Shown in pieces: positions 24,271-50,357 of a DNA stretch of 64,000 nucleotides. Under the pieces are notes generated by a model. That model ran no database searches. It was not told where the DNA came from and was given only the letters and a program-made list of their open reading frames with translations. Position 1 is the stretch's first letter, and each line of letters opens with the position of its first letter. Origin of the DNA: Tetracentron sinense. Lineage: Eukaryota; Streptophyta; Magnoliopsida; Trochodendrales; Trochodendraceae. The DNA lies in the NCBI GenBank assembly GCA_015143295.1, contig CM026574.1:10232938-10296937 (forward strand), given 5' to 3'. A program made the position numbers and the translations under genes.

Positions 24271-26260
24271 TTGATTGAAAATAGTAGTAAATATTAATAG
24301 ATTTTATGGATGAAGATTAGGTGGATACGAAATATTCTTAGTCTAGTAGTAAATATTCATCACAAAATAGAGTAGAAGGTTAAAATAGGGTACGTGACTC
24401 CAAATGGTTAGAATAAAGGATTGATGATGATGATTAATAAATTTAAGTTCAAGTATTATTACTATTAAAAGGATAATTGATTGATATATTCAATGTTATT
24501 TAAGAAATAATCTAGGGATACTCCCAAATATACTCCCTTATTTGAGTTGGCTTATTTTGACTTTACTATTATCCCATCTGCTCTAATCTTAACCGTTTAA
24601 TAATTAAGATAAACGGTTAAGATTAGAGAGTATATTTGGGAGTATCCATAGACGGACTCAATATTTAATTGTTTAAACTGCCGGCAAGGGACGAATTAGG
24701 GTGAGGCTTGCCTTTTTTAACCCATTTATAAACCGGATGAGGGTATTCTAAATGGGTTGACACTCTAACCCGACCAGGCCAACCCAATCACATCCGTATA
24801 CTCAGTTTACTAACCCAAACAATTTTGACTCAGACGATAATCCCACTTCCTGAATTAGTCCTAACCTTTGGATTAGTGGACTTCTAGGGGACCATACCGG
24901 TTTACAGACTCGGGTTGAAATTCGAAGTTTGGTGCATTGAATCAAAAGTGACAATCTGAGATTGTGGGTCCAGATATCAGGTGAGCCCATGTGCATTGAA
25001 GGTACTTACATCCATGTAACTCATTGAAAGACTAAAAACAATGTGCATGAGGGATATGTCTTGAGAGGCAGTTATGGACTTAAAAGCCCCATTTCATATA
25101 TTTTTCTTCTTATCACTGGTGTGGGATGAATCATAGCTCCTTTTAGTGGCTTCAAAAAGGGTGAGAGATAGTCATCCCACATGGCAGAGAGAGAGGATGG
25201 AATGATAAATGATAAGGGTCATCCATATATCTACCCTTATGGCACCTTAGTAAATTGGACTGTGTTTGTTTAGGTGTTACTTTACATCCTTAACCCCAAA
25301 AAAAAATCTACCCTCTAAAAAGATTAAATATTCAAACATTTCAGCTACCAAGAATAACTTTTGAGTGTTGTCGGGTCTTTTGATATTCTTCCATAAACTC
25401 ATCTCCTGACAACTAACCTAAGAGACTAATGTTTTGTTACCATTACTTGTTACAACTCCCTCAAATGGAAATTTCACTCTTTAAATTTTGACTCCGTAGT
25501 AGTTTCATTTTTATTTCGTAAAATCTTTGATAATATATTATTTATTATTTAATAGGACATAATCATGAGGTAACCCTAAATAAAGAGAAACAATACCCAT
25601 ATGATATATATGAAACGTATGGACAAGATAACCAATAAACTTGGTCTTAAAAGAAATAAGTTAAACCAACAAACAGGAGCTATGCGCGAACCTCAAGAAG
25701 GGTTGGAACCCACTGCATCCCCATAAACCAAATATTTCATACCCACTCGGTCATTTTTCACAAACCTATCACTAATTATCAACATTATCAATCAACCATA
25801 ACTTGCATTCCTTACAAGAAAATTCTAACTATACCCCTATGGGGAAACTGACAGGTTCCATCACTTGCCACCCTACAAGAAAGTCCTGGCTCTGCCCTTG
25901 TGGGGAAACAAATATGTTCCATCTCTCATTTAACACTAATTAATTTAATTTAAATGACTAATAATTGTTATTCAAGATACCCCCTCCTACTAAGAGTAAG
26001 ATCCCTTATTTTTCTCAATAATCTTTCTTTCTTCAGTCATTGGGAAATGAGAGAATTAGATACTATCTGTGCTTGTCCACCTGATTTGAGTATTTAGATT
26101 GAATGGTTAGGCTCCATGTCTGGATTTTTTTTATATAAATAGAGTATCATAATAATAATGGTAATTAAGGGAAGGAGGAAGGAACCTCATTCTTTATCAG
26201 TATGGATGGAGGGGAGGCAACACACGTGAGATGGCGATACCAAAGTGATCTTCATAAAGA
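24271..26260 (+). repeat. AAP-upstream copy B (attached to the intact gene)
   Basis: Sister of copy A up to about 25975, continuing into the AAP upstream region shared with copy C (36240-36640): CTCAATAATCTTT, GAGAGAATTAGATACT and TAGATTGAATGGT. It thus links the three units. A foldback element with GGGAGTATATTTGGGAGTA ends sits at about 24512-24655. Confidence 0.85.
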
Positions 26261-26559
26261 TAAGTTAAGATATGATATAGTTGCTTGTATACTGTCTATA
26301 TAAGGTTGAGAGATTGATCAAGGAGAGACACAGCTCCCCGTCTTTATCTCTGTTGTTCTGTTCTAATTGAACTCCTTTCGATGTCATCATTTAAGGAAGA
26401 GAGGTGGTCAATAAAGGTAAGGGGCTGAGACTGGGAAGTTTACTACTTTTCTTACTCTTTTGTTTTGGGTTTCTTTATTTATGTGTTGATTCGTCTTTCG
26501 ATCATAAATGCAAGTACATTGTTTTTCATAAGGAGGGGAGTGAGAGAGGAAAAAGATTA

Positions 26560-26827
26560 CCTTTGCGGCTGCCTGAGCTAGGCGCTCGGGCGTCCACAAA
26601 AACATTGGGCACCTCACGGTAATTTAGGGGAGAAGTCATTTCATTTTCTCCCCATGAGCTCGTCATCCACAAAACATTGGGCACTGGCGATAATTTAGGC
26701 GAGAAGTCATTTCATTTTCTCCCCATGATTTTGACTTATCCTCATTTGATATCTTTTCCCTTTAAAACGCCACATGCCTACTGGTTTGTGGATGACCGAG
26801 CGCCCTACTCGGGCAGCTGCCAGAGAT
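26560..26827. mobile_element. Core-B MITE in the AAP upstream region
   Basis: The left end GCGGCTGCCTGAGCTAGGCG and GCTCGG(G) are mirrored by CCGAGCGCCCTACTCGGGCA plus GCTGCC on the right. The interior holds two tandem units (about 78 bp) with the complement of GAGAAAATGAAATGACTTC (core B). It is absent at the matching place in the second AAP unit (about 36900-36960), so it inserted after that duplication or was lost there. It lies about 0.6 kb upstream of the AAP start codon. Confidence 0.7.
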
Positions 26828-27034
26828 GTGAGAGTGGGTGGTGAGGTTGGGAGATAGTGAGATTTTGGAGAGAGAGATAGAGAGAGTTAGTTACATGTAA
26901 CTTTTGAACAGGAGTGGTGAGTTGGTGAGAATGAGAGTGGGGAGGGGGGAGAGAGGGAGAGAGAGTTGATTTTGGACCAGGTGGGTCTTATAGAGAGATG
27001 ATTTTGGACCAGGTTGGTCTCTAGCTTTTTCTCT

Positions 27035-27044
27035 CTATATATAC
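27035..27044 (+). promoter_or_regulatory. Candidate TATA box of the AAP gene
   Basis: CTATATATAC lies about 410 bp before the ATG and is followed by a CT-rich leader (CTTTCTCTCTCTTGTCTCTA) typical of plant 5-prime untranslated regions. An alternative TATA (CTATATAAGG, 26296-26305) precedes a possible GGTAAGG splice donor near 26414, so an upstream non-coding first exon is also possible. Confidence 0.4.
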
Positions 27045-27452
27045 TCTAGGCTCTCCTCCAATGTTCACAAGAGAAGCTTTCTCTCTCTTGTCTCTACATA
27101 AGCCTTTCTTCCTTATCCTCTCCCTGTAATTTCTCTCTCTATCTCAGCTTTTGGTTGATCTGGGCATCTGGGGTAGGTGGTGGATGTAATTGGAGGCATA
27201 GCCACCTATCAAAAATTTCTTGGTTGTTTTTGGGTTTTTGTGACTCTTGGGTGGTGTGTCAGTATCAGTTGTCAGTGGCAGAGGAAGTAGAAATACTCAG
27301 AGCAGTTAGAGATTCATTCATTAAACATGAATATATATCATCCTCTCCAATATTTATTTACAGTGCACAATCTTCAACATCATTTGACAAGCCATTAGAC
27401 CTCTGTTTCTTCTCACAAAAGCTCCTCTTTGTTGGTCTCTTTCAAACAAAAG

Positions 27453-30400
27453 ATGGGTGAGAACACACTCACCAAGAACCACCACCACCATCATCACCTT
27501 GATCTCTCCATAGATGAGCTTCCACAAAGTAGCTCCAAATGCTTTGATGATGATGGTCGTCTCAAAAGAACAGGTATTTTGGTTTGTAATTGTTCTCTTT
27601 TGGATTTTGATTCTCTGATAGTGTTTCTTCAGTTTGATTAATCTTAAAAAAAAAAAAAAAAATTCAGGGAATGTTTGGACTGCAAGTGCCCACATAATAA
27701 CAGCTGTGATTGGATCTGGGGTACTGTCCTTGGCATGGGCTATAGCTCAACTGGGCTGGATTGCTGGTCCAACCGTGATGTTCTTGTTCTCCTTTGTGAT
27801 TTACTATACTTCGGCTCTCCTTGCTGACTGTTACCGGTCCGGCGACCCTGTCTCCGGCAAGAGAAACTATACTTACATGGACGCTGTTCGATCCAACCTT
27901 GGTAAATCTCACAGTTCTAAGTTTTACAATCAAAATTAACAAATGGGTTCTTTTCAAAAGTTCTAAAAGTTTAATCTTTCTTAGGTGGGGATAAGGTCAA
28001 GGTATGTGGGATTATTCAGTACTTGAACCTCTTTGGAGTCGCTATCGGATACACAATTGCAGCATCTATAAGCATGATGTGAGTTGAAAATTTGAACCCA
28101 AATAATGATTTTTGATCCTTGATTTCTTGTTTCAATTTAGTTTTTCTGATTCTGGATTAATGGGTATGAATCAATAGGGCGATCGAGAGGTCTAACTGTT
28201 TCCATGAGAGCGACGAGAAGAATCCGTGTCACGTATCGAGCAATCCATACATGATCATGTTTGGTGTAGCTGAAATTGTGTTTTCTCAAATCCCGGACTT
28301 CGATCAGATATGGTGGCTCTCCATTGTTGCAGCAGTGATGTCCTTTACTTACTCTACAATTGGTCTGAGTCTTGGAATAGCGAAAGTTGCAGGTCTGAAT
28401 TGCTTTCGTCATTGGCTTTGTTTTTGTATTTTTGAACTAGGGGATTGAATTCTGTTGAATCTGACTAAAGCCTCATGTTTCTGGATGATCAGAGACAGGG
28501 AATTTCATGGGTAGCTTTACTGGAATAAGCATAGGCACTGTCACTCAGACTCAAAAGATATGGAGGAGTTTTCAAGCACTAGGCGACATCGCATTTGCCT
28601 ACTCTTACTCAATCATCCTCATTGAAATTCAGGTGCATTTCTTGCTTGCTAAACCCATTAACAAAAGTTTATAAAATGAATAGTAATTTATAAAGAAAAT
28701 GATTCTGAGACCGCCCGGTCATAGGGCAACCCAAGGGGCCGAGACCAGACACGGGGATGCGGGATTCTAGGGCATCAAATTCTTTGAGGAGCCCTTCCTG
28801 CTGCTTGTTGATCCCATAAAACCCGATTCTGGTTATTTTTTAACTGAATTAAGCACAAATCCTCTAATCGGTATGTAATACTAAAATTGGTATTAGGCCC
28901 CACACGCCCAATTCTATTTTAACACCTCAACACATGCACACAGACCATAGTTTTCCCAAAAGTCCGATAACGCATCTCCGGGTTTTTTTTTTAGAACTTT
29001 TTTTTTTTTTTTTAAGAAGAGTGATATTTTAATTATGACATTCTCTATGATAACCAAACCCCACGAGCCCCGTTACGCCCTTAAGGTTGCCACTCCTTTA
29101 ATTCACCTCTTATCCTTTAAAAAAAAATTAATCTTAAGAGTTAGTGAATTTTAATTAGGGCTAAAATTCACTAACTCTTAGGATAAACAAAAATTTAATA
29201 TTTTTTCGCTAAATATTAAGAGTAAGAGTTGAATGCTAAGAGTTAGTGAATGTTAACCATGGTTAATAGGGGTTAAAAGGAACACATGTTGACCTATTGG
29301 TGCAATTGAACTCTCATTGGGTTCAATCGCGATTGGCTGTGATTCGATGTCAAAGAAAAATATTAAAGTAATGATATACCCTTGTTTGAATTGGGAATAA
29401 AAATGTAAAAGAAGTTTGGACATTAAATGCAATATTTGAGGTCTCAAAATAGAATTGGGCATGTGGGACCCTAATACCAATTCTGGTATCAGGGGCCGAC
29501 TACAGGAATTGTGTTCCTGCTACTTGTTGATCCTGTAAAACTTGATTGAGGTTATTTTAACTGAATTAATTAAATTAGTTAAAAATAACTTGAATTACAT
29601 TATTTTGCTTGAATCAAGTTACTTGCGTGTGTAAACAACATAAATTAATTGATTCAAGTTAAATAACCTGAATCATGTTATTTTAATAAATTAAAATAAT
29701 ATGATTCAAGTTATTTTAACTAATTTAATTTATTTTAATAAATTAAATAACCCAAATTGCCTTATTTTACCCGAAGACGAAAAAACCCACTGAATGAATA
29801 AGTAGATGAGAGTCAAATTTTTACCCAAAAGTACCGTCAAAACATGAACGGTCTCAGGTTGCCGTATTCTAATTAAAATGAAAACGATTGAAAAAGATAG
29901 ATATGAGTTAATATATGATCTAAGGTTGAAAATATCATTAAAATTTTCTTCAAAAGGAAGGTCTCTGGATCACATAATAAAAATAAGAAGTTGAATTCAT
30001 TACAGGACTTAATATATCTTTTTTACCGACATGTTCTAGCTTCCAAAGTGTTGCGCGTCTACCGATTTTCACCATGGTGGGTTGCTCTACATCATAATAG
30101 CTCATCCATATCCAATTGTTAAAATTAAAGGAGTCGATTCAATTGAATATTTTTTTAGGAACCATTGGAATCAGTAAATAAAAACTTATTCAAATTACTA
30201 TTTGAACAATTGGCTTAATCAATATTATGCTTCACAGGATACAATTAAATCACCACCATCCGAAGGGAAGACAATGAAGAAGGCTACCTTAGTGAGTGTT
30301 GCAGTGACAACGGCTTTCTATATGCTCTGCGGCTGCATGGGCTACGCCGCCTTTGGCGATCTAGCACCCGGAAACCTCCTAACTGGTTTCGGCTTCTATA

Positions 30401-30891
30401 AACCATTTTGGCTGCTGGATATCGCTAATGCTGCCATAGTAATCCACCTAGTCGGAGCTTACCAAGTCTACTGCCAACCCCTGTTCGCCTTCATGGAGAA
30501 ATGGGCATTGCAAAGATGGCCAAAGAGCCAATTTATCCACAAAGAAATCAAAGTACCAATCCCGGGTTTCCATCCCTTCAATCTCAACCTCTTTCGCTTG
30601 GTATGGCGATCGGCATTCGTGGTCTTGACAACCATCATATCTATGCTCCTCCCATTCTTCAACGACGTAGTTGGGCTGCTCGGTGCATTCGGGTTTTGGC
30701 CACTCACTGTATATTTCCCGGTTGAGATGTACATTGCCCAAAAGAAGATACCCAAGTGGAGCACAAGATGGGTTTGCCTCCAAATCCTCAGTGTAGGTTG
30801 TCTCATCATCTCACTAGCTGCTGCAACTGGATCAGTTGCGGGTATCGTCCTCGATCTGAAGGCTTACAAGCCCTTCAAGACCACCTACTAA
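27453..30891 (+). CDS. Amino acid permease, AAP family (six exons, 485 aa)
   Basis: Model: join(27453..27573, 27668..27901, 27985..28078, 28178..28392, 28493..28632, 30238..30891). All junctions are GT-AG, phases agree, and the total is 1,458 nt. AAPs are plasma-membrane proton/amino-acid symporters of the AAAP superfamily with 10-11 membrane spans and about 480 aa, used in phloem loading, root uptake and seed supply. The protein shows family hallmarks in order: DDDGRLKRTGNVWTASAHII (start of span 1), VIGSGVLSLAWAIAQLGW, SGKRNYTYMDAVRSNLGG, IGYTIAASISMMAI, IPDFDQIWWLSIVAAVMSF, YSYSIILIEIQDTIKSPPSE, YMLCGCMGYAAFGD, GAYQVYCQPLFAFMEKW, PFFNDVVGLLGAFGFWPLTV, YFPVEMYIAQKKIP and a C-terminal LKAYKPFKTTY. 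It is closest in feel to the AAP2/3/4/6 group. The N-terminus has six histidines (residues 10-15). Intron 5 (1.6 kb) carries a foldback insertion. All exons look intact, so this is the cluster's only functional AAP. Confidence 0.95.
28884..29482. mobile_element. Foldback element in AAP intron 5
   Basis: AAATTGGTATTAGGCCCCAC and CCCAATTCTATTTTA on the left are mirrored by TAGAATTGGGCATGTGGGA and CCTAATACCAATT on the right (about 37-bp ends). The interior contains core A (GTTAACCATGGTTAATAGGG) and a second small palindrome (AACTCTTAG.. twice). The corresponding intron of the broken AAP copy lacks it. Confidence 0.7.
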
Positions 30892-31573
30892 TTCATTAGT
30901 ATCTCTTCATTATTGCCATTAATGAAGAGTTCTAAGAGAAGGCAAGAACATAAGAGTTCAATTCCTGTCCATACCCATGTTCAAATTCATAAAGCTTTAA
31001 GGAAGGGTTCTCTTGCTGTTGCTTGTAGTTCATGTTGGTTTTACAGTTCTTGTTCAAATCCTAAATTGAGTCATGCAAGGGGGACCCATCTAATGTATGT
31101 GGATTTCAAATATGAGTCTCATCCCACCTACCTCCCTCTCTCTCTCTCTTTCTCAATCAAAATAATAAAAATCTAAACAAAAGCCTTTGAAAACTTTTTA
31201 CTTGTCAAGACCTGTTACGACTTGTTTTTTATTCAATAAATGGCTCAATGCATCTTTGATCTTAAAGATGAAAACCATCATAAGATTCATAGAAAAAATA
31301 ATGCAATAAAAGAAAATCATTTTGTTTTTCAGTGAAATGTTATCATGTAAACTCTAAACTCAAACACACATCGAGACAGACACTCCAAAAGGGTTGCTTG
31401 GACTAGTTTCTTATAAAAGAAAATCAATACACATTAAATTTATTTATGTACTTTGATAAGATGCCTACTTTACTCACTATTTCTTGTAATAAAAAAGGTG
31501 GGGTTACAATTTTCTATCACTTTTATGTTTTCTCTCAACCACAAACCAGTTGCTAAAATACAATTATATATCA

Positions 31574-34922: not shown

Positions 34923-35790
34923 TTTTTGTAGTGTAGAAGGCATCATTTATCTACACTTAGTAATTGACTTGGACTTCTGCTTGCCATGTGAGGGTATTTA
35001 TCCTCTCCAAGACTTGATTAGAGACCACTCTCGTCAGAGGGGCACACCTTTACACTGATCTCCACGCAGATATTGCTTTTTGTAAGAGAATAACAAGCAC
35101 CCTATACTATAATAAGTTTTACAGAATAAGAAATGGGAACAATTCGATGGTTAGGATCATCCGATCAAGCTATAATTTCGGATGATGGGCTATCAATCAT
35201 AAGCGTGGAGGCATTGTATGTTAGTCCCACCACCTAGTGAGATAATTAAAGCTCAAAGCTCACTTGTTAATGGTAGTTTCTTCAGTTAATTTCTATACTG
35301 AGGGCTAGAAAATGTTCCTTCCAGCTAGCACTCAAGATTACCTTAAAATCATCTCCTTAACCTCTACAGCTTTTTTGGACTAAAAAACGCAATCTCATAA
35401 ACTGGATTCACTTTTGATAAAAGATGGTCGAACACTAGAGAGCCTTTTTTTTTTTTATTATTGTAACACAGTTAGGCCGCAACCACAGTTTTTACTATTA
35501 GTATTTGTACATTTGTTAGAAGTTAGAAGCCTACAATTGAAGCTGGGCCAAAGGGTGGGTTCTTCAAACGCCACAAGTTAGGGAATCGCTCACAAACCAC
35601 CCAAACCGGGGATACGCATACTGCCAGTCTGCCACCAATACCAATGGGCTACCAATCTTGTAAAATGATCGACGTTGCTGGTTCAACCACGTATATCATC
35701 CATGCAACCAACGGGCTAACGGCAGAGCCAAGAGGCCGGGTCAAGGGGGCCGTAGCTCCAATCCCCAAGCTAACCATTGACTACTAACCG
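34923..35790. repeat. Duplicated segment E, copy 1, carrying a minus-strand SINE
   Basis: Matches 43989-44510 in order: a T-run, ATTTATCTACACTT, GGGGCACACCTT, TTTGTAAGAGAATAACAAGC, GGTTAGGATCATCCGATCAA, and CCACGTATATCATCCATGCA. The first 160 bp reads on the minus strand as a tRNA-derived SINE (see copy 2). Confidence 0.75.
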
Positions 35791-35824
35791 TGGGTAAATG
35801 ATATCCAAAAAAAAAAACTATTGA

Positions 35825-37027
35825 AAAACAAATCTTTATACTATGTTATTTAATTTAATTATTTAATAAGTCATAACAATGGGGAAAAGGAGCAGCTGTC
35901 CCATCTCAATAAGAAGAAACAATACCGGTAGTGTATGTGTAAAACGTAAGGAACAAGATGACCCACAAACTTGGTCCTCCAAAAAAAAAAAATCAGAAGT
36001 ATGCCTCTGAGCACCATGGAGGGTTGAAACCCTCCACAATCCACTCCCACCCCTAATTAAACCCAATATTTTATATTCACCTAATTATTCTCCATAAATC
36101 TATCAATATTATTAACATTATCAATCAACCATCGCTTCCCTTTACAAGCTGGCTCTGCCCGTGCAAGGGCAACCAACACGTTCCATCTCCCATTTAAAAC
36201 TAATTAATTTAATTTAAATCACTAATAATTGTAATTCAAAATTCAAAGATTTTTTTTGTATGGCATTCAAACTTGAAAGATACCCATCCTACTAAGTGTA
36301 AAAGCCCTTATTTTCTCAATAATCTTTAATTTCTTTCCTCAATCATTGAGAAATGAGAGAATTAGATACTGTTTGTGCTTCTCCACCTGATTCGAGTTTT
36401 TAGATTGAATGGTCAGCTCCATGTCTGGATTTTTTTTTATATAATCAAAGCATCATAATCCTAATGGTAATTAAGGGAAGGATAAGGGAACATCATTCTC
36501 TATCAATAATTCTCTATCAATAATGATGGAGGAGGGGTGGGGATGGGGAAGGACAAAGGGGAGGCAATACACGTGAGATGGTGATAGAAAAGTGATCCTC
36601 ATTCTCTTTCAATAGAAAAGTGTGACATATGATATAGTTGCTTGTACTGTCTATATAAGTTTGAGAGATGAATCAAAGAGAGACACGGCTACAACTCACT
36701 CTGCTCGTCTTTATCTGTTGTTCTGTTCTAATAAAACCCCTTCGGATGTCATCATTTAAGGAAGAGAGGTGGTCAATGAAGGTAAGGGACTGAGACTGAG
36801 AAGCTTTGTTACTTTTTCTTAATCTTTTTGTTTTGGGTTTCTTTGTTTATGTGTTTTGATTTGTCTTTCTGTCATAAATGCAACTACATGGGTTTTCATA
36901 AGGAATGGAGTATCTCTTCAAAAACAAAAAGAAAAAAAAGGAGGGAGTGAGAGAGGTCGGGGAGAGTGAGATTTTTTTTAGAGAGAGAGAAAGATGTAAC
37001 TTTTGTAAAGGAGGGGCGGGGAAGGAG
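35825..37027 (+). repeat. AAP-upstream copy C
   Basis: Continues the copy B sequence: ACTTGGTCCT, ACTAATTAATTTAATTTAAA, CTCAATAATCTTT, CTGTCTATATAAG, GATGTCATCATTTAAGGAAG. It leads into the broken AAP copy. Confidence 0.8.
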
Positions 37028-37302
37028 CAGTGTTGTCAGAACCGGACCGTAGTACCGCCGGTCGAAACGGTAGAACAGGGAACCCCCTTGCCGATTCCCA
37101 AAACCCTCAAAATTGGGATATATTAAAAACCAGCTAGAACCGATCAAAACCGGTAGAACTGGTTCCGGTTGGGAACCGACCAGAACTGGAAAATTTTAGG
37201 GAAAAAAATGAAAAAAAAATATTTTTTTGATAAAAAGTATACGGTCGAACCGAAACCGGCCACTCTACCGGTTCGATGTCCGGTCCGGTTCTCACAACAC
37301 TG
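37028..37302. mobile_element. hAT-type MITE (275 bp)
   Basis: Starts CAGTGTTGTCAGAACCGGAC and ends with the mirror GTCCGGTCCGGTTCTCACAA plus CACTG. These CAGTG..CACTG ends are typical of hAT elements. The flanking 8 bp (GGAAGGAG / GGAGGAGA) match only imperfectly. It is absent from the intact AAP unit. Confidence 0.7.
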
Positions 37303-37351
37303 GGAGGAGAGAGAGACTGAGTTGATTTTGGACCGGAGCCAAATCATCCAG

Positions 37352-37710
37352 GGTGATAACTGGATTTGGCAAATCTGGTTATCACCCCTAGAGGTCGTCA
37401 CATCTCTCCTTTGACACCCCTTAACCTTGGGTAAGGTTCACCCACCCCTAGGGTTCACTCACCCATCTTTGGTTTGTTTTTGTAAATATTATTTTTTTAA
37501 ATAAATTAAAAAGCTGTTTATAGAGTTTTTTTAATATTAAAATCAGGATTTTAAATTTTTATTAAAAAAATTACTATTTAAAAAAAAAAACAAGGATGGG
37601 TGGGTGAACCCTAAGAGTGGGTGAACCTTACCCACGGTTAAGGGGTGTCAAAACAAACACGTGGCGACCTCTAGGGGTGATAATCGAATTTGCCAAATCC
37701 GGTTATCACC
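37352..37710. mobile_element. Core-A foldback MITE, GGTGATAAC ends
   Basis: GGTGATAACTGGATTTGGCA and TTATCACCCCTAGAGGTCG are mirrored on the right by CGACCTCTAGGGGTGATAA and AAATCCGGTTATCACC. The middle is AT-rich between mirrored CACCCACCCCTAGGGTTCA and GGGTGAACCTTACCCACGG words. Same family as 49415-50108. It lies about 350 bp upstream of the broken AAP start codon. Confidence 0.8.
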
Positions 37711-38057
37711 GTAGAAAATTTGACTCCGGACCGACCAGGTGGGTCTATAGCTTTTTCTTCATCAAAGTGCTAAATATAACCGGTACCTCCTTCAAGGGAC
37801 TCCATTCCACCCTCTAGCCTCTCCTCTAAAACTCACAAGAGAAGCTTTCTCTCTCTTGTCTCTACATAAGCCTTTCTTCCTTAACATCTTCCTCTAGCTT
37901 CTCTCTCTCTATCTCAACTTTTGCTTGATTTGGGTATCTGGGTTAGGTAGTGGATGTAATGGAGGCATAGCCACCACCTATCCAAAATTTCTTGGATGTT
38001 TTTGGGTTTTTCTTCTTACTAAATCTCCTCTCTGTCGGTCTCTTTCAAAAAAAAAAG

Positions 38058-41000
38058 ATGGGTGAGAACACACTCACCAAGAACCACCACCACCACCATC
38101 ACCATCACCTTGATCTCTCCATAGATGAGTTTCCACAAGGTGGCTCCAAATGCTTCAATGATGATGGTCGTCTCAAAAGAACAGGTATTTTGGTTTTAAT
38201 GGTTCTCTTTTGGATATTGATTCTCTTTTTGTGTTTGTTCAGTTTGATTAATTAATCTTCTTCTTTTTGTTTTTTAAATCAGGGAATGTTTGGACTGCAT
38301 GTGCCCACATAATAACAGCTGTGATTAGATCTGGGGTACTGTCCTTGGCATGGACTATAGCTCAACTGGGCTGGATTGCTGGTCCAGCTGTGATGTTCTT
38401 GTTCTCCTTACATGGACGCTGTTCGATCCAACCTTGGTAAATCTCACAGTTCTAAGTTTTTAAATCAAATTAACAAATGGGTTCTTTTTAAAAGTCCTAA
38501 AAATTTTATCTTTTCCAGGTGGGGCTAAGGTTAAGGTATGTGGGATTATTCAGTATTTGAACCTCTTCGGAGTCGCTATTGGATACACAATTGCAGCATC
38601 TATAAGCATGAAGTCAGTTGAATTTGAACCAAAACAGTGATTTTTGATCCTTGATTTCTTGTTTTAATTTAGTTTTCCAGTCTCTGGATTAATGGGTATT
38701 AATCGACAGGGCGATCAAGAGGTCTAACTGTTTCCATGAGAGCGGCGAGAAGAGTCTGTGTCACGTATCGAGCAGTCCATAAATGATCATGTTCGGTGTA
38801 GCTGAAATTGTGATCTCTCAAATCCCGGACTTTTATCAGATATGGTGGCTCTCCATTGTTGCAGCAGTTATGTCCTTAACTTACTCTACAATTGCTTTTT
38901 TAGTATTTTGAACTAGGAGATTGAATTCTGTTGAATCTGACTAAAGCCTCATCTTTCTGGATGATCAGAGACGGGGAATTTGATGGGTAGCTTCACTGGA
39001 ATAAGCGTAGGCACTGTCACTCAGACTCAAAAGATATGGAGGAGTTTTCAAGCACTAGGCGACATCGCCTGTGCCTACTCTTATTCAACCATCCTCATTA
39101 TTGAAATTCAGGTACCTTTCTTGCTTGCTAAACCCATTAACAAAAGGTTATCAAATGAATCGTAATCCTGCCCGGTCATAGGGCAACCCAAGATCGGAGA
39201 CGGGGATGCAGGATCTAGGGCGCATCAAATTCTTTGAGACACCATGATGCCTTGCTACTTGTTGATCCCGTAAAACCTGATTCAGTTCAGTTAATCATGA
39301 AAAACCTCATTCAATTTAGTTAAAAATAACCTGTGAATCACGTTATTTTGCTTGAATCAAGTTACCTGCATGAACCATAGAAATTAATTGATCACTCAAG
39401 TAAATTAACCTGAATCATGTTATTTAATAAGTTAAAAGAATATGATACGGGTTATTTAATACGAATCATGTTATTTTACCTAAATATATAGGAAAAAGCT
39501 TTCACATGATGACTAGTAGTTGGGAGTCAAATTTTTGGACGCCCGAAAATACCCTGAAGACATGAACGGTCTCAGGTTGCCGCTTTCTTATTAGAATGAA
39601 AACAATCGATCAAAAGAGATGTGAGTTAATATATGCTCTAAAGTCAAAATTTTCTTTAAAAATCCTTAAAAAGAAAGGTCCATCAATTAAGAAATAAAAA
39701 TAAGGAACTGAATTCTTTATAGGACTTGGTATCTCTTTTAGAATATGCCACCACTCAAACTCGAACCAAGATGTTCTAGCATTGCTTCCTAAGAACAACG
39801 TGTCTACTGATTTCACCATGGTTGCCTGTTCGAAATCATAATGGCCCATCCATATATATATATATATATTGTGGATATATATCATGAAAGCTCAGACTAG
39901 TCACATGGGATAACATAGGGAATATCCCCACCCCATGCAACCATTGTTGAGGGGAGCCAGTGACTCGAACTTGATGGGTTGGCAATTGATGAGATTGAAG
40001 GAGTCAATTCAATGCAATATTTTTTAGAAACCATTTGAATCACACTGTAATGGGGAAAATTGGTCATTGACAAGTTATCTATGGACGAACTCAAGCAGAA
40101 GTCTGGATAAACTCGAGCAGAAGTCTGGACGTGAACCTTAAGAAATCGTCCATTGACGCAGTATTAATGATACCCTCATGAGTTAGATATTATCTTTGAC
40201 CTAACATTAAATGTTAATCATCTCAGATCACTTCAACGATCAGAACCGACCTGTATAGAAGGGATGGGCATTAATGAAGAGATATTTGTCTGACACAAAG
40301 GTGATAATTAGTTTAGATGTATGGTCATCTACTAACATGGATGACCATAGTAGTTTTTTGCCAATAAAAATACCCGAAAACCCAATGGTAATGGGCTGAC
40401 AATTGATGATAAGACTATATCCTTCTCCATTCTCCTAGAGCAAAGGCCCTACCACCAAGAACTCCAGACTTTCTCTTCTCTCATTTATATATCCTTACTT
40501 CCTTTTGTATCCGGTACTGATTTAAGCTTCGAAATGTCTTCCACAGGGTGGAAGGCCTCTCCTCAGCAACTCAGTTATTCAAACGTCATCCTCCATCCTT
40601 CTACTAGTAAACTGGTGTCATCTGGAGTACACTGGAAGATACTTTACACACACTAAATAAAAACTTATTTAAATTACTATCTGGATGATGATTGAACAAT
40701 TGGATTAATCGAAATTGTGCTTCACAGGATACAATTAAATCCCCACCATCAGAACTGAAGACGATGAAGAAGGCCACCTTACTAAGTGTTGCAGTGACAA
40801 TGGCTTTCTATATGCTCTGCGGCTGCATGGGCTCTGCCACCTTTGGCGATCGAGCACCGGGAAACCTCTTGATTGGTTTTGGCTTCTATAAACCATTCTG
40901 GGTCTTGGATATCACTAATGCAGCCATAGTAATCAACCTAGTGAGCTTACCAAGTTTACTGCCAACCCCTCTTCGCCTTCATCGAGAAATGGGCATTGCA

Positions 41001-41379
41001 AAGATGGCCAAAGAGCCAATTTATCCACAAAGAAATCAAAGTACCGATCCCGGGTTTCCGTCCCTACAACCTCAACGTCTTCCGCTTGGTATGGTGATCG
41101 GCATTCGTGGTCTTGACGACCATCATATCTATGCTCCTCCCATTCTTCAACGACGTAGTTGGGCTGCTCGGTGCATTCGGGTTTTGGCCATTCACTATAT
41201 ATTTTCTAGTTAAGATGCTTATTGCCCAAAAGAAGATACCCAAGTAGAGCACAAGATGGCTTTACCTCCAAATCCTGAATTTCGGTTGCCTCATCATCTC
41301 AGTCGTCGCTGCAACTGGATCAGTTGCTGGTATCGTCCTCGATCTGAAGGCCTACAAACCCTTCAAGACCACCTACAAA
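38058..41379 (+). pseudogene. Second AAP gene, full-length but broken
   Basis: All six exon positions of the intact AAP can be followed. Lesions seen by comparison: an 80-bp deletion in exon 2 (equivalent to 27795-27874 of the intact gene) that shifts the frame; a TAA in exon 4 (AGTCCATAA, where the intact gene has TAC); loss of the end of exon 4 with its splice donor; a 3-bp insertion in exon 5; a 2-bp deletion in exon 6 (CTAGTGAGCTT against CTAGTCGGAGCTT); TGA for CGA near 41096; TAG in CCCAAGTAGAGC; and the normal stop changed to AAA. Gly of VIGSG is Arg. The N-terminal histidine run is eight long against six. Intron 5 carries a solo LTR. It is clearly non-coding, but it may still be transcribed, as the promoter region is duplicated with it. 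Confidence 0.95.
40046..40648. mobile_element. Solo LTR (603 bp) in intron 5 of the broken AAP copy
   Basis: TGTAATGGGG at the left and ACTTTACA at the right (TG..CA termini) are flanked by the same five bases, CACAC (40041-40045 and 40649-40653). The intact AAP intron and the inverted third copy show the empty site (GAAT..CACTAAATAAAA). It is an LTR-retrotransposon remnant of unclassified family, and it entered this copy after the copies separated. Confidence 0.85.
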
Positions 41380-41404
41380 TTCATTTGTTTAGGTTTTTTA
41401 TTAT

Positions 41405-42365
41405 TTAGAGAGAGAGAGAGAGAGTTAGGATGGGACTCATATTTGAAATCCACATACATTAGATGGGTCCTCCTACCTCAGTTTAGGAATTGAACAAGAA
41501 CTGTAAAACCAACATGAACCACAAGCAACAGTAAGATACTACTGAATCAGTAGGTGGTCTTGAAGGGCTTGTAGGCCTTCAGATCGAGGACGATACCAGC
41601 AACTGATCCAGTTGCAGCAACAACTGAGATGATGAGGCTACCAACACTCAGGATTTGGAGGCAAACCCATCTTGTGCTCCACTTGGGTATCTTCTTTTGG
41701 GCAATATACATCTCAACCGGGAAATATACAGTGAGTGGCCAAAACCCGAATGCATCGAGCAGCCCAACTACAACGTTGAAGAATAGGAGGAGCATAGATA
41801 TGATGGTTGTAAAGACCACGAATGTCGATCGCCATACCAAGCGAAAAAGGTTCAGATTGAAGGGACGGAAACCCGGGGGATCGATACTTTGATTTCTTTG
41901 TGGATAAATTGGCTCTGTGGCCATCTTTGCAATGCCCATTTCTCCATGAAGGCGAAGAGGGTTTGGCAGTAAACTTGGTAAGCTCTGACTAGGTGGATTA
42001 CTATGGCAGCATTAGCGATATCCAAGAGCTAGAATGGTTTATAGAAGCCAAAACTAGTCAGGAGGTTTCCCGGTGCTAGATCACCAAAGGCGGCATAGTC
42101 CATGCGGCTAGCCGTTGTCACTGCAACACTTAGTAAGGTGGCCTTCTTCATTGTCTTCCCTTCCGATGGTGGGGATTTAATTGCATCCTGTGAAGCACAA
42201 TCTCGATTAATTCAATTGTTCAATCATTGTCTAGATAGTAATGTGAATAAGTTTTTATTTAGTGCAATTCAAATGGTTTCTAAAAAAATATTGCATTGAA
42301 TTGACTCCTTCAATCTCAATGCTTGAATATGGATGCACTATTATGATTTCGAGCAAGCAACCATG
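41405..42365 (-). pseudogene. Third AAP copy: last exon only, inverted
   Basis: Complement of 41547-42187 is AAP exon 6 from GATGCAATTAAATCCCC to a TGA stop. It is preceded (42188-42365) by the end of intron 5 and followed (41405-41546) by AAP 3-prime untranslated sequence. Compared with the intact gene, about 12 codons around TTAFYMLCGCMG are reduced, a TAG replaces the tryptophan codon of PFWLLD, and there is a small frame-changing insertion before the PGFRPFNLNLF segment. Downstream of that, 41547-41939 stays open and reads correctly to the C-terminus. It lies tail-to-tail with the second copy; exons 1-5 are absent, so no permease is made. Confidence 0.9.
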
Positions 42366-42490
42366 GTGAGAGATGGTCATCCCACATAGCAAAGAGAGAG
42401 ATAAGGGTTATCCTTCTACCTTCCAAGAAGATTAAACATTCAAACATTTCAGCTATACCAAGAATAACTTTTTGACTGTTGTTGCTTATC
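42366..42490 (+). repeat. Fragment of the AAP-upstream repeat
   Basis: GTGAGAGATGGTCATCCCAC, AGATTAAACATTCAAACATT and ACCAAGAATAACTTTT match 21950-22140 and 25160-25370. It is in direct orientation, although the adjoining AAP exon is inverted, which marks a rearrangement junction near 42365. Confidence 0.8.
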
Positions 42491-42721
42491 AAAAACAAAC
42501 AAACAAGTGATTTATACTTACCCTTTGGATTGTTGGGTTGTAACCAATATAATCTCACATCGACTGGTGATGTAGACTTCCGTAATTCATTTGGTTCCTT
42601 CCTCTTTATCAAATATATAGGCCTTTTTGTCGAGATGTGTTAGGTTCAGCCTCCTAAGTCCGTGTGAGTTTACCTCTTTACCAAAATAAAGAAAAAACTA
42701 TTACTTTACCAAAATAAAGTA

Positions 42722-43025
42722 GAGATTAGTTTTCATGCAGAGTTCTGCATCATGCGGAGAGCGGAGCGCCCCGCTTGATATTTAAACTGAACAAAGTAAT
42801 AATATTAACATTTTTAAATAATAAAAGAGATTAATTTTCATGCAGAGCTCCGCACATGCGGAGCTCCCTTTTTACACTGTCTAGGGGTAAATGTGTAATT
42901 ATTGATAATTACACATTTACCCCTGGACAGTGTAAAAAGGGAGCTCCGAACATGCAGAGCTCCGCATGATATTTAAACTGATAATGATAATAAAAAGTGT
43001 GTAACATTTTTATTTAAAAAATTTA
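42722..43025. repeat. Two-unit repeat with near-perfect 62-bp-arm hairpin
   Basis: AGAGATTARTTTTCATGCAG starts units at about 42722 and 42828, and TGATATTTAAACTGA closes each. Unit 2 contains the hairpin 42841-42966: TTACACTGTCTAGGGGTAAA and TGTGTAATTAT, a TG loop, then the complement, with few mismatches. TGCGGAGCTCC words flank the arms. It is MITE-like; no target duplication was resolved. Confidence 0.75.
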
Positions 43026-43988
43026 AGTACATATCTTACACTTTATGTGTCAGCATCGATCCCGTTGGTTTATTGTTGTCATGCCCTAAAAGACCATTGT
43101 TGCATTGTTTCATTCCAGAGGGTGATGTTGTTAGAAGGTCTACTAAACCCACTTTAACAACAACTAATGGTGGATACATGATATATAAAAATAATATGCA
43201 TATAAAAATCAAATAAAAAAGTGAAAAATCAATATGACACTAGTGAGAAAATTTCAGTTGGTGTAAGTTAATGACCAAGCGAAAAGAAAAGCCTGAAAAG
43301 AGATGAATGAAGTTAGTGAAAAACTTATAATAACACCTACATTCATTAATCAAAATACAGATATTCATTAGGTACAATAGGTAAACAAGATTTGTGTAGC
43401 CAACCCCAAATAGCTGAGATAAGGTATTGGCCACAAAGAAGAGCAAGGTTAATCATCTTTTGCCCATCGAATCGGATATGACATACAGAACCTCATGGGT
43501 CAAACAAATTATCATCTGAGCCTTCAATTTGTTGACCATATATCTTAGATCCAAGGTAAAAGTTTGATCATAGGGAATTTCTAAGCGCCTAATTATATGA
43601 ACATAATCGCCTAATTATATGAACATAATCACCGTCTTAGCTCCAGATTGAGAGTTTAAGATCCAACATTTAATATTTTGCTAGGCACAATTATAAGGCT
43701 TGCCTAACAACCGAGCTCTCTTGTTGGTCCTCGTCTGACCTTATTGACATTAGTTTCCTTTTATAATCATAAGATAATGCTTCCTTGAGATAACTAACCT
43801 TGAATTGCTAATTTGCTATCATGATTATTCCTTTTTTTTTCTCATAAATGCTAGCCCCAGCCGCAATCTTCTAAAGACGCAAGGTGGTGGCAACAAGTGT
43901 CAAACCATCTCTTTGTTATAGGGTAGCTAGTAACACCACCTTGCATCAACTCAGCATCTTTAAAAAATAATTGACTCAGTGCATCTGG
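43026..43988. other. Non-coding; possible LINE-tail-like word
   Basis: The complement of 43380-43440 reads AGCTATTTGGGGTTGGCTAC, resembling a sequence widespread at plant LINE-like 3-prime tails; low confidence. CGCCTAATTATATGAACATA occurs twice in tandem near 43587-43630. No gene was seen. Confidence 0.3.
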
Positions 43989-44510
43989 CTAGTTTTTTTT
44001 TTTTTCAAGAATGCATTATTTATCTACACTTTAGTTGGATTTATAATAGTGAATAGAGTTGTGTTTGTCATGTGAGGGAAATTTATCCTCTCAGACCACC
44101 CTCATGAGAGGGGCACACCTTACCAACTGAGCTCCAGGTAGATACTGCTATTTGTAAGAGAATAACAAGCACCCACAATACTATATATAATAAGTTTTAT
44201 AGTATAAGAAATGGGTCCTTGTACAAAAAAGCGACTACCAAATCGATGGTTAGGTTCATCCGATCAAAGCTATAATTTCAGGTGATGGGCTACCAATCAT
44301 AAGCGACTACCTTTTTTTTTTTTCATTTTTCGTAACATGATTAGGCCACAACCTTAGTATTTGTTCATTGGTTAGAAGTTAATCGCTCACAAACCACCCA
44401 AACTGGGGATTCGCATACTGCCACCAGTACCAATGGGCTACCAATCATGTATAATGATCGACGGTGCAGGTTCAACCACGTATATCATCCATGCAACCAA
44501 GGGCGGAGCC
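43989..44510. repeat. Duplicated segment E, copy 2, carrying a minus-strand SINE
   Basis: The complement of about 43989-44150 has GGAGCTCAGTTGGTAAGGTG (A-box like, tRNA-derived), GGTGGTCTGAGAGGAT (degenerate B box), and ends in a poly-A (T-run at 43990-44005). The flanking sequence also matches copy 1, so the whole segment was duplicated, not just the SINE. Confidence 0.7.
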
Positions 44511-46724
44511 AATAAACACGGAAACAAATCGCCTGTGTACTTCCATGGGTTCTTCCCTGTGATTATGAGTGGTGTAAGGCTAGGATTCATCTGTGCATAT
44601 GGATTTAACAGTTGTAACCACCTGTTGGATAGATCTTGACCTTCAAATCCTCTGGCCACATGGAAGAATATAAGGAAGAACACAGACGATTTGTTTCCAA
44701 TAAACACTGGGGGTGTGTTTAGATCTGTGGAATTGTAGGGTGGAATTGTTAATTCCATCCTACAATTCTAATTCCACTTTTTGGGGGTGCATTTAAAAGG
44801 TGTGGAATTAGAATTCTCCAAATCCACCATACACATGGTTACCCAAAAAATAATAATAATAATAAATTCCACCATACACATACAAAATTGAATCGTACGT
44901 TGATTTCTCCTTTATGGGATGGTCTTAATTGACAAATCCATTGTATGTGGAATTGAAAAAAAAAAACCGATCAAAACTCGTATGGTTCTTTTAATGCGGC
45001 AGAGAGAGACGAATAGACACCATCTCTCCCTCATGTTCCTCTCCTCCCATCCATTTTGTCTCCCTGATCCCTGTTCCCTGTTCCCTGTTCCCTGTTCCCT
45101 GTCATGGGCACCCTCCCGTTCCTCTCCTCCCAACACCTATCTTCTTATTTGTACAGATCCAGAGGATGCAACTCAAGCTATCTTTGTTTTTGTTTTCAGA
45201 ATGAATTCTGGAATTCGAGCAAACTATCTCATTAAATTTGTGTAATGTTATTTTCATTTTGTGCTTGATCATTTTGAAATACTGGCATCTAGTGGTGGTT
45301 TTACTGCTTCACCAAGCTCAAAGAATTTAGGAAATGGTTTTGTTTTTGTTATGTTCTGTTCCTGACAATCTCGTGGGATGTATTTGGTTAAAATCCTTTG
45401 ATTCTTTACCCTTTGACTCTTTACCCCTTAATCATAGATACTCTTCATGTGTTTGATGAGAGAGAGAGAGAGATCATGACTGAAAATTCAGATACATATA
45501 TCTCTTTTTTGAGTTTTTAAGTACATTTTTGGTGTGAATTATGAGAGAAGAATGGAAGAGGAAGTGGAAGTCGGCAATGAAAGCTAAAATGAGCATTAAG
45601 ATTGAAAGGTGTTGGTGGCCTTGTCTTCCACTGCTCACTGGATTGTCATTAAATTCTACTATAATTCTTTCTTTGAATGAGCAAAGAAAGTTTCAAAACA
45701 GACAAAATATGGCCGACATTAATGCCACTAGTGAAACATGAAGGAGAATTTGTGCTGAATGGATTTTCCAGTGAGCAGTGGAAGGCAATTTACTTGCAGA
45801 AGAGGTGCTGGATGTACAAAAAAGGTTAGTTGAATCTTTATTTAATCATTAAGTTCAAAGTCATTTCACGTAATAATTTTTATTTTTCCAGATAGTAGAA
45901 TTTAAAATTTTATAATTCAATTTCATGAATTTAGTAGTGCATCCAAGGCATCGATGGGAACTGGGGCATCTGCCATAGATAATCCGTTGCCATGACTAAT
46001 TAGCTGCCTTATTATTCCATGTCGAAGGAGCAAAATAATCAGATTCATGCACCATTTTTCGATAACAACAGCGACCGCTGGGCATAATGCCCAAAAGTTT
46101 GGTCGTATAGTTGGGAACTTGGGATAATTACATGGGCAAGGCTAGCCTCTCCCCTAATTTGAGCAAAAGAAGATAAGATTATGTCAGTTTTTTGTGGGGT
46201 TCATAATTTTTATTTTGCCTTTGAGTTCAAATGAACGGAGAGTGAGGTTACCGGAAAGTAGGATAGCATTATCCTAATTACATACGAAAGAGACTTCCCA
46301 TCAAAGATCTCCCATAACGTGTGTTAATTACATGTTATCATTTCAACCAAAACAAAAGACTAAAGACGGTATGTTTGATTATTGGCAACGGATTACCTCT
46401 AGGCTAGTTTCGGTTGGACCTAGGGTTAGACTAGGGTTTAACCTAGGGTTTGATTTAGGGATAGGGCTAGGTTAGTGCTAGCTACGGTTTAGGGCTGTAG
46501 GGTTAGGCCCAAGTTGAGGCAAGGATCGGTTCTAGGGTAAGCGTAGGATAGGCTGATCATGATTAGTAATGGGTGTAAAAATTGAGTGTTTACAATTGAT
46601 TATTTGTAACTTTTTCAGATTCATTCCTTTAACATTAATCTTAAAGTCTAATGCGTGTGCTAATGGAAGATCCTCCCTCACATCCTGTTTTATTTATCAT
46701 AACTTAAAGAAAGTTACACAAAGC
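44511..46724. other. Non-coding; several small repeats
   Basis: No gene was recognised. Contents: a foldback of GTGGAATTGTAGGGTGGAAT-type words near 44725-44780; a CCCTGTT heptamer array (about five units) at 45065-45100; a fragment of the 49.2-kb inverted repeat at about 45960-46065 (GATAATCCGTTGCCATGACT, GGAGCAAAATAATCAGATTC); and a degenerate telomere-like block (CTAGGGTTTAACCTAGGGTT) at 46395-46550. The ORF at 45541-45741 is of unknown origin. Confidence 0.5.
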
Positions 46725-48218
46725 TCAAACGCGACGAGGCTTGATACATGCCACTAAAGGTGTTTTCATAGTTAGCACAAAGGTGAGGTCCTCGGTTAGA
46801 TCAGGGAGTTGACCTTCAACTGCACTTGACCAATGAAAATCGTTGATCAAGTGGGCTATTGTGAGACCAACCTGAAGCTTTGCCAACTCCATTCCCGCAC
46901 AAACTCGCCTGCCTGCACCAAATGGAATGAAAGACCGCTCAATTGCTTCCACAAGACTACCGTCATTGTCATTCTTCAAAGAAGTTAGAAACCTCTCAGG
47001 CATGAAGCGATGCGGCTCGGCCCAGACAGTTGGATCATGAAGCAAAGCATAAAGGTTCACCACCACAGTAGAACCCTCCACCACCTTAGTCCTCATTATG
47101 TTGCTATCTCTCGCTGCCTTGTGAGGCACTCCTAGCGGCGCTATAGGTTTCATCCTCATGGTTTCCATCACTACCGCATTTAGATATTGTAACTTACTCA
47201 CCTCTTCGATACTAATCGTCCCGCTTCTGCTCCTACCAACTTCCTCGTAGAGTTTATGCTGGATTTGTGGATTGTGTATCAAGAATGCGAGAGCCCATGC
47301 GATTGTGGTGGAGGTACTGTCGACTCCGAGCAAGAATAGGTCGAAGAGACTGGAGATGACTACATCTTCTTGGAAATCCTGAGAGAGAAGGAAGTGCAAG
47401 TAGCAATTATTAGGAGATGATGATCTGTGAGAAGAAATGTAAGGACCTATCAAGTCCTCAATCATGTGCTTTACTCTGCATGATTCTAGGAATGGACGCC
47501 TAAGGATGGGGATGTGACGAGCGAATTCAAATACATCGACAAGATGGGAATGACTGGTGATCCTTATGAGTTCCTCTACTACATTGTCCATGTCTTGTAC
47601 AAAGCTTTCGTCCTCGAAGTCGAGTCCAAAGCAAAATCGAGCGATTACTCGCACTGTGGCTCGTCGAAGATGGAGCAATGGCTTGACGACTCCATGGTTA
47701 GAAGAAGCTTCTTCTTGGAGGCTACCCGTCATGCTGATAAGATCATGCTCTTGTAGCCGGGCTTGTGCAGCGATAGTTTGAGGATTGAAGGTGGTGTTAT
47801 GGAGGCCTTTACGAAGGGTGTGCCAGTGGGGACCAAAGTTAGAGGTAGAAAGGGTATGCCAATCTGCACTGGTGAGCTTGGACCTGTATGGGAATGTCCG
47901 GGATGAGAAGTCGGAGGCCTTAGTTACAAGCACCTCCCAAGCTAGATCGGGATCGCTCACCACGATCGTTGGCTTCCAGCTTCCAAACCAAACAGTCATC
48001 ATTCCTCCATGCACTTTGGCCAGTTTAGCCAAGGTCAAATGGATCAACTCCCCTGTCTTTTTGATTTGGTGCAGGTTTCCGATGATCGGAAACTTTGGTG
48101 GCCCCGGTGGCCATTGCGAGGCATTCGATTTCACAGACCTCTTACAAAAGGTTTCTACCATTAACATGATCACTCCGCCCACCACTATGGCAACTAGAAT
48201 CCATGAACTCCCTTCCAT
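46725..48218 (-). CDS. Cytochrome P450, CYP719 family (497 aa, intronless)
   Basis: A complete single-exon P450. Seen: N-terminal membrane anchor (residues 6-24), hinge WPPGPPKFPIIGNLHQI (36-52), LAKLAKVHGG and FGSWKPTIVVSDPDLAWEVL (B region), I-helix LLGVDSTSTT (296-305), K-helix ETMR (352-355), MKPIAPLGVPHKAA, PERF (407-410), and heme loop FGAGRRVCAG with Cys440. The spaced words KVHG..MT.W.GSW, LLGVDSTS, METMRMKPIAPL.(I/V)PHK and the C-terminal FVLTMKTPL.A.I are the signature of CYP719. CYP719 enzymes known elsewhere form methylenedioxy bridges (canadine, stylopine, cheilanthifoline and pluviatolide synthases) or couple phenols (salutaridine synthase, CYP719B1), acting on the ER surface with P450 reductase. 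Substrate cannot be told here. In the I-helix the usual acid-Thr pair is Asp-Ser. No other alkaloid or lignan gene lies in the window. The upstream region is altered by repeats and a MITE. Confidence 0.9.
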   Translation of the reverse strand: MEGSSWILVAIVVGGVIMLMVETFCKRSVKSNASQWPPGPPKFPIIGNLHQIKKTGELIHLTLAKLAKVHGGMMTVWFGSWKPTIVVSDPDLAWEVLVTKASDFSSRTFPYRSKLTSADWHTLSTSNFGPHWHTLRKGLHNTTFNPQTIAAQARLQEHDLISMTGSLQEEASSNHGVVKPLLHLRRATVRVIARFCFGLDFEDESFVQDMDNVVEELIRITSHSHLVDVFEFARHIPILRRPFLESCRVKHMIEDLIGPYISSHRSSSPNNCYLHFLLSQDFQEDVVISSLFDLFLLGVDSTSTTIAWALAFLIHNPQIQHKLYEEVGRSRSGTISIEEVSKLQYLNAVVMETMRMKPIAPLGVPHKAARDSNIMRTKVVEGSTVVVNLYALLHDPTVWAEPHRFMPERFLTSLKNDNDGSLVEAIERSFIPFGAGRRVCAGMELAKLQVGLTIAHLINDFHWSSAVEGQLPDLTEDLTFVLTMKTPLVACIKPRRV

Positions 48219-48257
48219 TTCTTTGCCTTCTCACTTTGTTAATTCGTGGGTATCTTC

Positions 48258-49164: not shown

Positions 49165-50357
49165 TGTGTACCACCCAACAGAATGTCCAATACATGCAAT
49201 CACTCCCCCATTTAAATACCTTACCACACGTCTTGCAAAGAATAGATGGGAACTAGGGCATCTACCACACATCATGCAAAGAGTAGATCGGAACTGGGGT
49301 ATCTGCCATAGATAATCCGTTGCCATGACTAATTAGCTGCCTTATTATTCCATGTCAAAGGAGCAAAATATTCAGATTCATGCACCATTTTTCGTTCAGA
49401 TTCAAATCCTCTACGGTGATAATTAACCGGATTTGGCAAATCCAGTTATCACCCCTAGAGGTCGCCATGTGTCTCCTTTGACACTCCTTAACCGTGGGTA
49501 GGGTTCAACCACCCCTAGGGCTCACCCATCCATTTTTGGTTTTTTTTTTTTTTCAAATATTAATTCTTTTTTTCAAAATTAAAAAACTGTTTTTAGAGTT
49601 TTTTTAATATTAAAAACAGTTTTTTAATTTTTAAAAAAGAATTAATATTTTTTTAAAAAAATGGTTAGGTGAACCCTAGGGGTGGGTGAACCTTACCCAC
49701 GGTTAAGGGGTGTCAAAGGAGACACGTGGTGACCTCTAGGGGTGATAACCGGAGTCCCGTTATCACCGGAGATGATTATCACCCCTAGAGGTCACCACGT
49801 GTCTCCTTTGACACCCCTTAACTGTGGGTACAGTTCACCCACCCCTAGGGTTCACCCACCTATTTTTGTTTTTTTTTTTTAAATATTAATTCTTTTTTTA
49901 AAATTAAAAAACTGTTTTAGATTTTTTTTTATATTAGAAACAGTTTTTTAATTTTAAAAAAAGAATTAATATTTTTTACAAAAAAACAAAAATAGGTGGG
50001 TGAACCCGGGGTGGTTGAACCTTACCCATGGTTAAGGGGTGTCAAAGGAGACACGTGGTGACCTCTAGGGGTGATAACCGGATTTGCCTAATCGGGTTAA
50101 TTATCACCGTAGAGGATTTGAATCTCAACGAAAAATGGTGCATGAATCTGAATATTTTGCTCCTTTGACATGGAATAATAAGGCAGTTAATTAGTCATGG
50201 CAACGGATTATCTATGGCAGATACCCCAGTTCCGATCTACTCTTTGCATGATGTGCGGTAGATGCCCTAGTTCCCATCTATTCTTTGCACGACGTGTGGT
50301 AAGGCATTTAAATGGGGGAGTGATTGCATGTATTGGACATTCTGTTGGGTGGTACAT
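49165..50357. repeat. 1.2-kb inverted duplication made of repeat W and foldback MITEs
   Basis: The left arm (49165 to about 49750) reads W tail (TGTACCACCCAACAGAATGT, ACATGCAATCACTCCCCCAT, two tandem units with GGAACTRGGGYATCTRCCA, GATAATCCGTTGCCATGACT, ATTCAGATTCATGCACCATT), then a core-A MITE. The right arm (about 49770-50357) is its complement in reverse order, ending ATTGGACATTCTGTTGGGTG. The centre (about 49751-49769) is short and unmatched. Two similar MITEs (49415-49760 and 49770-50108), each itself palindromic, form the inner parts. Confidence 0.85.
49415..50108. mobile_element. Pair of core-A foldback MITEs, head to head
   Basis: Each has GGTGATAA..AACCGG ends, mirrored ATCACCCCTAGAGGTC / GACCTCTAGGGGTGAT, then ACACGTG with GTGTCAAAGGAGACACG, CTTAACCGTGGGTA(G), CACCCCTAGGG and an AT-rich middle. 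Both belong to the family seen at 37352-37710. Confidence 0.8.

Follow-up and report, generated by a model that had tools for sequence, protein, structure and literature searches.

The AAP locus and its inverted tail

The window, that is, the whole stretch of 64,000 nucleotides that we analysed, lies on a 33-Mb contig (C24) of a 1.16-Gb plant genome and contains no N. In it, an intact AAP gene has a broken tandem copy some 10.5 kb downstream (Table 1), the two being collinear from 25521-31189 to 35830-41388, and the broken copy has lost part of exon 2, the end of exon 4, and 2 bp in exon 6. The intact gene is still strongly constrained, as judged from an exon 6 omega of 0.07-0.10 against its paralogues. 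An earlier note on this DNA took it for the only working AAP, which holds within the window and fails genome-wide, given that in a genome search its exon 6 matches three other contigs at 85, 83 and 82% in DNA, with the exon-6-encoded part of the protein 87-90% identical to the AAP paralogues found there. Upstream of the intact gene there is also a 1.4-kb direct duplication (21350-22743 and 24589-25975, 91%), a piece of which recurs upstream of the AAP paralogues on contigs C5 and C6 and to the right of the inverted arm, and we therefore regard this duplication as old AAP-flanking sequence. On the other side, a cytochrome P450 frame on the minus strand (46725-48230, 501 aa stop to stop, Pfam p450 E 4e-85) has its 3' end facing the AAP foldback.

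Table 1. Positions, in window coordinates, of the AAP copies, the inverted repeat and the associated elements
Feature	Position	Strand	Basis or remark
Intact AAP gene, six exons, 485 aa	27453-30891	+	GT-AG exon joining, open frame, Pfam Aa_trans E 6e-125
Exon 6 of intact AAP	30238-30891	+	Exon joining
Foldback (MITE-like) element in promoter of broken copy	37330-37732		80.6% self-complementary; not in the aligned intact promoter
Altered, expanded TATA region in promoter of broken copy	37755-37805	+	Two insertions relative to the intact promoter
Broken tandem AAP copy	37812-41388	+	Parts of exons 2 and 4 lost; exon 6 with frameshift and stops
Target-site duplication CACAC, left	40041-40045	+	Flanks solo LTR
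Solo LTR, 603 bp, TG...CA	40046-40648	+	Sense, towards hairpin (probable orientation); decayed TATA at about 40360, AATAAA at 40363, TATATA at about 40484
Target-site duplication CACAC, right	40649-40653	+	Flanks solo LTR
Direct arm: end of intron 5 and exon 6 (40728-41379)	40651-41388	+	BLASTN, fold
Left junction, direct arm to inverted 3'UTR	41376-41388		About 2 bp common to both sides
Inverted 3'UTR, the hairpin loop	41376-41536	-	Matches intact 31011-31189
Poly(A) signal of inverted 3'UTR	TTTATT at 41397	-	Motif scan
Inverted exon 6	41546-42187	-	15-bp loss, 2-bp gain, one stop
Inverted part of intron 5	42188-42369	-	Matches intact 30069-30237
Fragment of AAP upstream region, right of inverted arm	42366-42482	+	GGTGA common to both sides of the join
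First plus-strand AATAAA past the arms	42685-42690	+	Motif scan

The tail-to-tail AAP inverted repeat at the end of the broken copy is real. BLASTN aligns its arms, 40651-41383 with 42264-41543, at 88.5% over 737 columns and 950 bits, whereas 50 first-order Markov shuffles of 37000-45000 gave no score above 41 bits. The anatomy given in the earlier note was largely right: the intact exon 6 coordinates are exact, and the inverted exon 6, placed at complement 41547-42187, is only one base longer. The direct exon 6 is present with the end that had been assigned to it, the start having been put 10 bp late, at 40738. The gap of about 167 bp between the two exon 6 copies is also as described, and it consists of the inverted copy's own 3'UTR; the pairing reaches into intron 5 as described and goes beyond the extent claimed, since beyond the 603-bp insertion 39990-40046 pairs with 42261-42318. 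According to the genome search, exon 6 occurs at three places only on this contig.

The window holds further foldbacks, of which the one at 49167-50356 is longer than that of AAP. This palindrome of 1.19 kb is 89% self-complementary, encloses smaller foldback units and is in part related to the element at 37330-37732; it looks like a set of nested MITE-type elements. A short palindrome, with two 75-bp arms only 2 bp apart and 88% alike, lies to the right of the inverted arm at 42828-42979.

Origin and decay of the inverted tail

The order of pieces behind the direct exon 6, namely a reversed 3'UTR and exon 6 with some of intron 5, and then AAP upstream sequence again on the plus strand, shows that the tandem AAP array underwent a second rearrangement, located at the tail of the second copy. 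A genome search with the last of these pieces (42366-42482) gave six matches including itself. Two of the others are in the window, upstream of the intact AAP; two precede the paralogues on C5 and C6, by about 4.2 kb and 3.8 kb respectively and on the strand of these genes; and the sixth is at another place on C5. Template switching at microhomologies during replication would explain the inverted tail, given the short microhomology at the joins (about 2 bp at the left and 5 bp at the right) and the forward, short backward, and then forward order resuming further upstream.

Most likely, the inverted piece was copied from the lineage of the broken copy and not from the intact gene. The synonymous distances in exon 6 point that way (dS of 0.128 between direct and inverted, 0.191 between intact and inverted, and 0.243 between intact and direct), and so do the variable sites of intron 5, ten of which set the intact gene apart against one for the direct and two for the inverted copy, and an 11-bp stretch common to both arms and missing from the intact gene. 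The raw exon 6 identity of the inverted arm is higher to the intact gene (92.8%) than to the direct arm (90.7%), which we discount because the intact branch is slow. In the exon, three sites unite intact and inverted copies against the direct copy and the paralogues, and four unite direct and inverted copies against the intact gene and the paralogues; the exon 6 tree leaves the source of the inverted arm unsettled, with 60% support, and the AU test rejects none of the three topologies. We thus reject with some doubt the view that the inverted arm is a copy of the intact gene, given that the synonymous sites and intron 5 favour the direct copy.

The exon 6 changes that distinguish the intact gene from the two arms, a class covering the stem common to the arms as well as the intact branch, are 18 silent and 4 replacement, so that both the intact branch and this stem look constrained. 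With stops counted as replacements, the private changes are 10 silent and 26 replacement in the direct arm, and 5 silent and 15 replacement in the inverted arm, counts which show that both arms have drifted without coding constraint since the inverted duplication. From the contrast between the 18:4 and the private 10:26 and 5:15, we infer that the coding constraint on the broken copy was lost at or near the time of the inverted duplication. The insertion of a solo LTR into intron 5 of the direct arm came afterwards, and a single window thus displays the order of events: a tandem copy, then an inverted tail with loss of constraint, and then an LTR insertion.

A solo LTR probably pointing into the foldback

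The 603-bp insertion has TG...CA ends, a 5-bp target duplication, and no internal part, as a solo LTR should; its insertion site is empty in the inverted arm, and it ends about 80 bp before the direct exon 6. Its relatives are diverged, with at least 42 matches including itself when 40 of the 213 candidates were scored, and among those scored the best long match besides itself is 78%. Most likely, the plus strand is the sense strand of the solo LTR, which would then point into the hairpin, since the relative L021 carries a primer-binding-like site, TTGGCGCC, after its LTR end in the same orientation, and a comparison by eye finds similar sequence at the same place in L014. The tRNA-Met primer-binding pattern was found in none of the 12 other LTR loci. 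The 9.9-kb locus L019 on contig C23 has another, nested element inside and does not settle the orientation of the LTR, and an open reading frame of L020 considered as an integrase was rejected for want of a credible Pfam match. The TATA box of the family, TATAAATA, is exact in 11 of 13 aligned relatives and reads AATAAAAATA in the solo LTR, whose TATATA stretch near 40484 occurs in none of these 13. L021 and another LTR of the same family, L022, lie on one strand of contig C14 about 13.5 kb apart and share only 82% identity over 684 bp, a likeness so low that they would be an old insertion if paired.

Possible transcription across the arms

The earlier note had the duplicated AAP promoter driving transcription through the spacer, and this part of the proposal is not supported. 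As read from its alignment with the intact promoter, that promoter is damaged, both by the foldback element and by the altered TATA region, and the solo LTR intervenes before the hairpin with an AATAAA, itself part of its changed TATA box, that might terminate transcription begun at the AAP promoter. As a candidate promoter, the solo LTR, probably in sense orientation, is better placed, although it is decayed as well. As for read-through across the arms, a motif scan found no AATAAA on the plus strand from 40657 to 42684, and none of six AATAAA variants in 41380-41545. Plant poly(A) signals are loose, so these scans speak of the canonical stop. Transcription on the plus strand would be the likelier way to join the arms, given that the inverted copy has its own poly(A) signal on the minus strand.

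A long hairpin is indeed within the capacity of such a transcript, as had been proposed. The predicted fold of the plus strand from 40651 to 42264 (1614 nt) has a minimum free energy of -1218 kcal/mol, 670 of its 714 pairs being between the arms, with 12 uninterrupted helices of at least 21 pairs. Of the 634 21-mers of the intact exon 6, 219 occur exactly in an arm, 433 lie within one mismatch, and 607 within three, compared with 27, 15, and 24 exact of 634 for the three paralogues. Small-RNA targeting of the intact AAP exon 6 would therefore be possible in principle, and the idea of silencing RNA against the intact AAP keeps its anatomy, its predicted duplex, and its exact 21-mers, and lacks support for its driver. 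As for selection on the pairing, the G:U test found none, with 21 pair-keeping against 24 pair-breaking transitions (p = 0.77), and the arm differences also include 23 transversions.

Comparison with known silencing loci

From its structure, the foldback is a candidate member of the known tail-to-tail silencing loci, such as Lgc1, soybean I, SULF, and YUP. As in Lgc1 and soybean I, inverted copies of one gene face each other, and the arms are alike enough for those 670 pairs and match an intact relative. The rice Lgc1 locus shares the tail-to-tail copies of one gene, and RNA interference, following the loss of 3.5 kb between GluB4 and GluB5, has been held responsible for its dominant low-glutelin trait (PMC10647759). 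There silencing was observed, in contrast to the AAP locus, a truncated broken copy facing a tail fragment, which is known from sequence alone. In soybean I, inverted gene copies silence relatives elsewhere; a wild accession with a pigmented coat has the same CHS inverted repeat, so that the repeat alone does not explain the trait, which is explained by an inversion bringing a subtilisin promoter next to it (PMC6418295). By this parallel, the solo LTR is the natural candidate for a captured promoter at the AAP locus. Unlike the AAP foldback, soybean I is a 27-kb cluster for which primary and secondary siRNAs were shown (PMC3804491), and for SULF of Antirrhinum and YUP of Mimulus, the source gene of the latter being unrelated to pigment, targets and effects are reported.

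Closer in structure are the two rice pairs of Guo et al. 2009, adjacent inverted pseudogenes of one parent with arms 83 and 96% alike, which share with the AAP foldback a stem of more than 100 bp and a loop of less than 2 kb (PMC2708354). These pairs were selected by small-RNA density, whereas the AAP foldback comes to us purely as a DNA structure. Young MIRNA genes also originate from inverted duplications, including those of pseudogenes (PMC3237417); unlike theirs, the AAP duplex is long and imperfect, not short and defined. It falls in no described MIRNA family, with no Rfam match at gathering score in 35000-46000. Among the matches listed in a literature search, judged by title or the start of the abstract, there was no case of an AAP inverted repeat, and likewise none, by title or abstract start, of an inverted repeat with a pseudogene into which an LTR reads.

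Proposed reading: a decaying foldback that would act mainly on itself

The reading that we prefer, to which we give a little less than an even chance, is that the foldback is decaying and acts, if at all, mainly on itself. A plus-strand RNA, whether initiated in the LTR, at the damaged AAP promoter, or by leaky transcription, would cross both exon 6 copies and form a hairpin of about 640 bp, which Dicer-like enzymes would cut. Since the locus is old, imperfect, adjacent to a transposable element, and lacking a sound promoter, a low small-RNA output should be expected, mainly in cis, leading to methylation of the foldback itself and affecting the intact AAP weakly or not at all. The rice pseudogene pair whose arms are 83% alike is counted in its favour, because small RNAs map to that pair and none were detected from the parent gene (PMC2708354). 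Counted against it are artificial mismatched hairpins, efficient in trans despite their mismatches: with one substitution in four, 33 of 33 lines were silenced, 10 of them strongly, and with two in ten, 28 of 41 lines were strongly silenced; traditional hairpin transgenes are methylated and tend to self-silence, while mismatched ones still silence in transgenic plants (PMC9263138). In those constructs, the antisense arm matches the target exactly, unlike that of the AAP foldback.

A second point counted for this reading in cis is the excess of C>T/G>A changes in the arms, the kind of change that methylated DNA would give. With unanimous paralogues as the reference, and sites with disagreeing paralogues dropped (11 in exons 1-5), these changes outnumber the reverse by 23 to 5 in the exon 6 arms, whereas the first five exons of the broken copy have 5 against 6 (Fisher p = 0.044, nominal, one of three comparisons tried). 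A wider count over intron and exon, with polarity by the majority of the three copies, gave 29 to 9, not significant against exons 1-5 (p = 0.07) or against the intact branch (p = 0.13). The skew hints at past methylation, and with numbers so small and post hoc it should be taken as a lead, not as evidence of silencing.

It is a serious though somewhat doubtful alternative that the foldback is inert debris, a decaying rearrangement among transposable elements that is never transcribed and gives no small RNAs. The neutral drift of both arms, pairing free of selection, the promoter damage, and the presence of further foldbacks in the window are what this reading would lead one to expect, and it is at odds with a sense-oriented LTR pointing into the foldback and with the hint of methylation in the C>T skew, significant in one comparison of the three. 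If no siRNAs are made, the locus would be a useful negative, a long gene-matching foldback kept to a dS of 0.13 between the arms without shutting its neighbour down, and would bear on how often inverted duplications become regulators.

We consider it unlikely that, as the earlier note proposed, siRNAs from read-through RNA down-regulate the intact AAP in one tissue or another, with its paralogues perhaps affected too. The many 21-mers of the intact exon 6 that an arm matches exactly or within three mismatches, the plus strand free of AATAAA between the arms, the demonstrated silencing by imperfect hairpins (PMC9263138), and the precedents of Lgc1, soybean I, SULF, and YUP all argue for it. Against it stand the damaged AAP promoter and the decayed TATA box of the LTR, arm differences without bias towards pair-keeping changes, and the soybean repeat, insufficient without its captured promoter (PMC6418295). 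The low omega of the intact gene excludes silencing that is severe everywhere. If siRNAs are made, this would be a natural silencing locus aimed at the amino acid transporter next door.

Much less probable still is the more specific version in which the solo LTR in intron 5 starts a sense-loop-antisense transcript and silences the neighbouring AAP, and weakly the paralogues, where and when the LTR is active; if true, a retrotransposon LTR would have made a natural RNAi gene out of a pseudogene foldback, one working only in LTR-active cells or stresses.

Assemblies are known to go wrong at inverted repeats, and yet an inverted copy produced by misjoining is scarcely credible and we reject it, because the arms differ at more than 11% of columns and hence are not one sequence read twice, the LTR with its clean target duplication sits in one arm only, and neither the three exon 6 places on the contig nor the N-free window suggests such an error.
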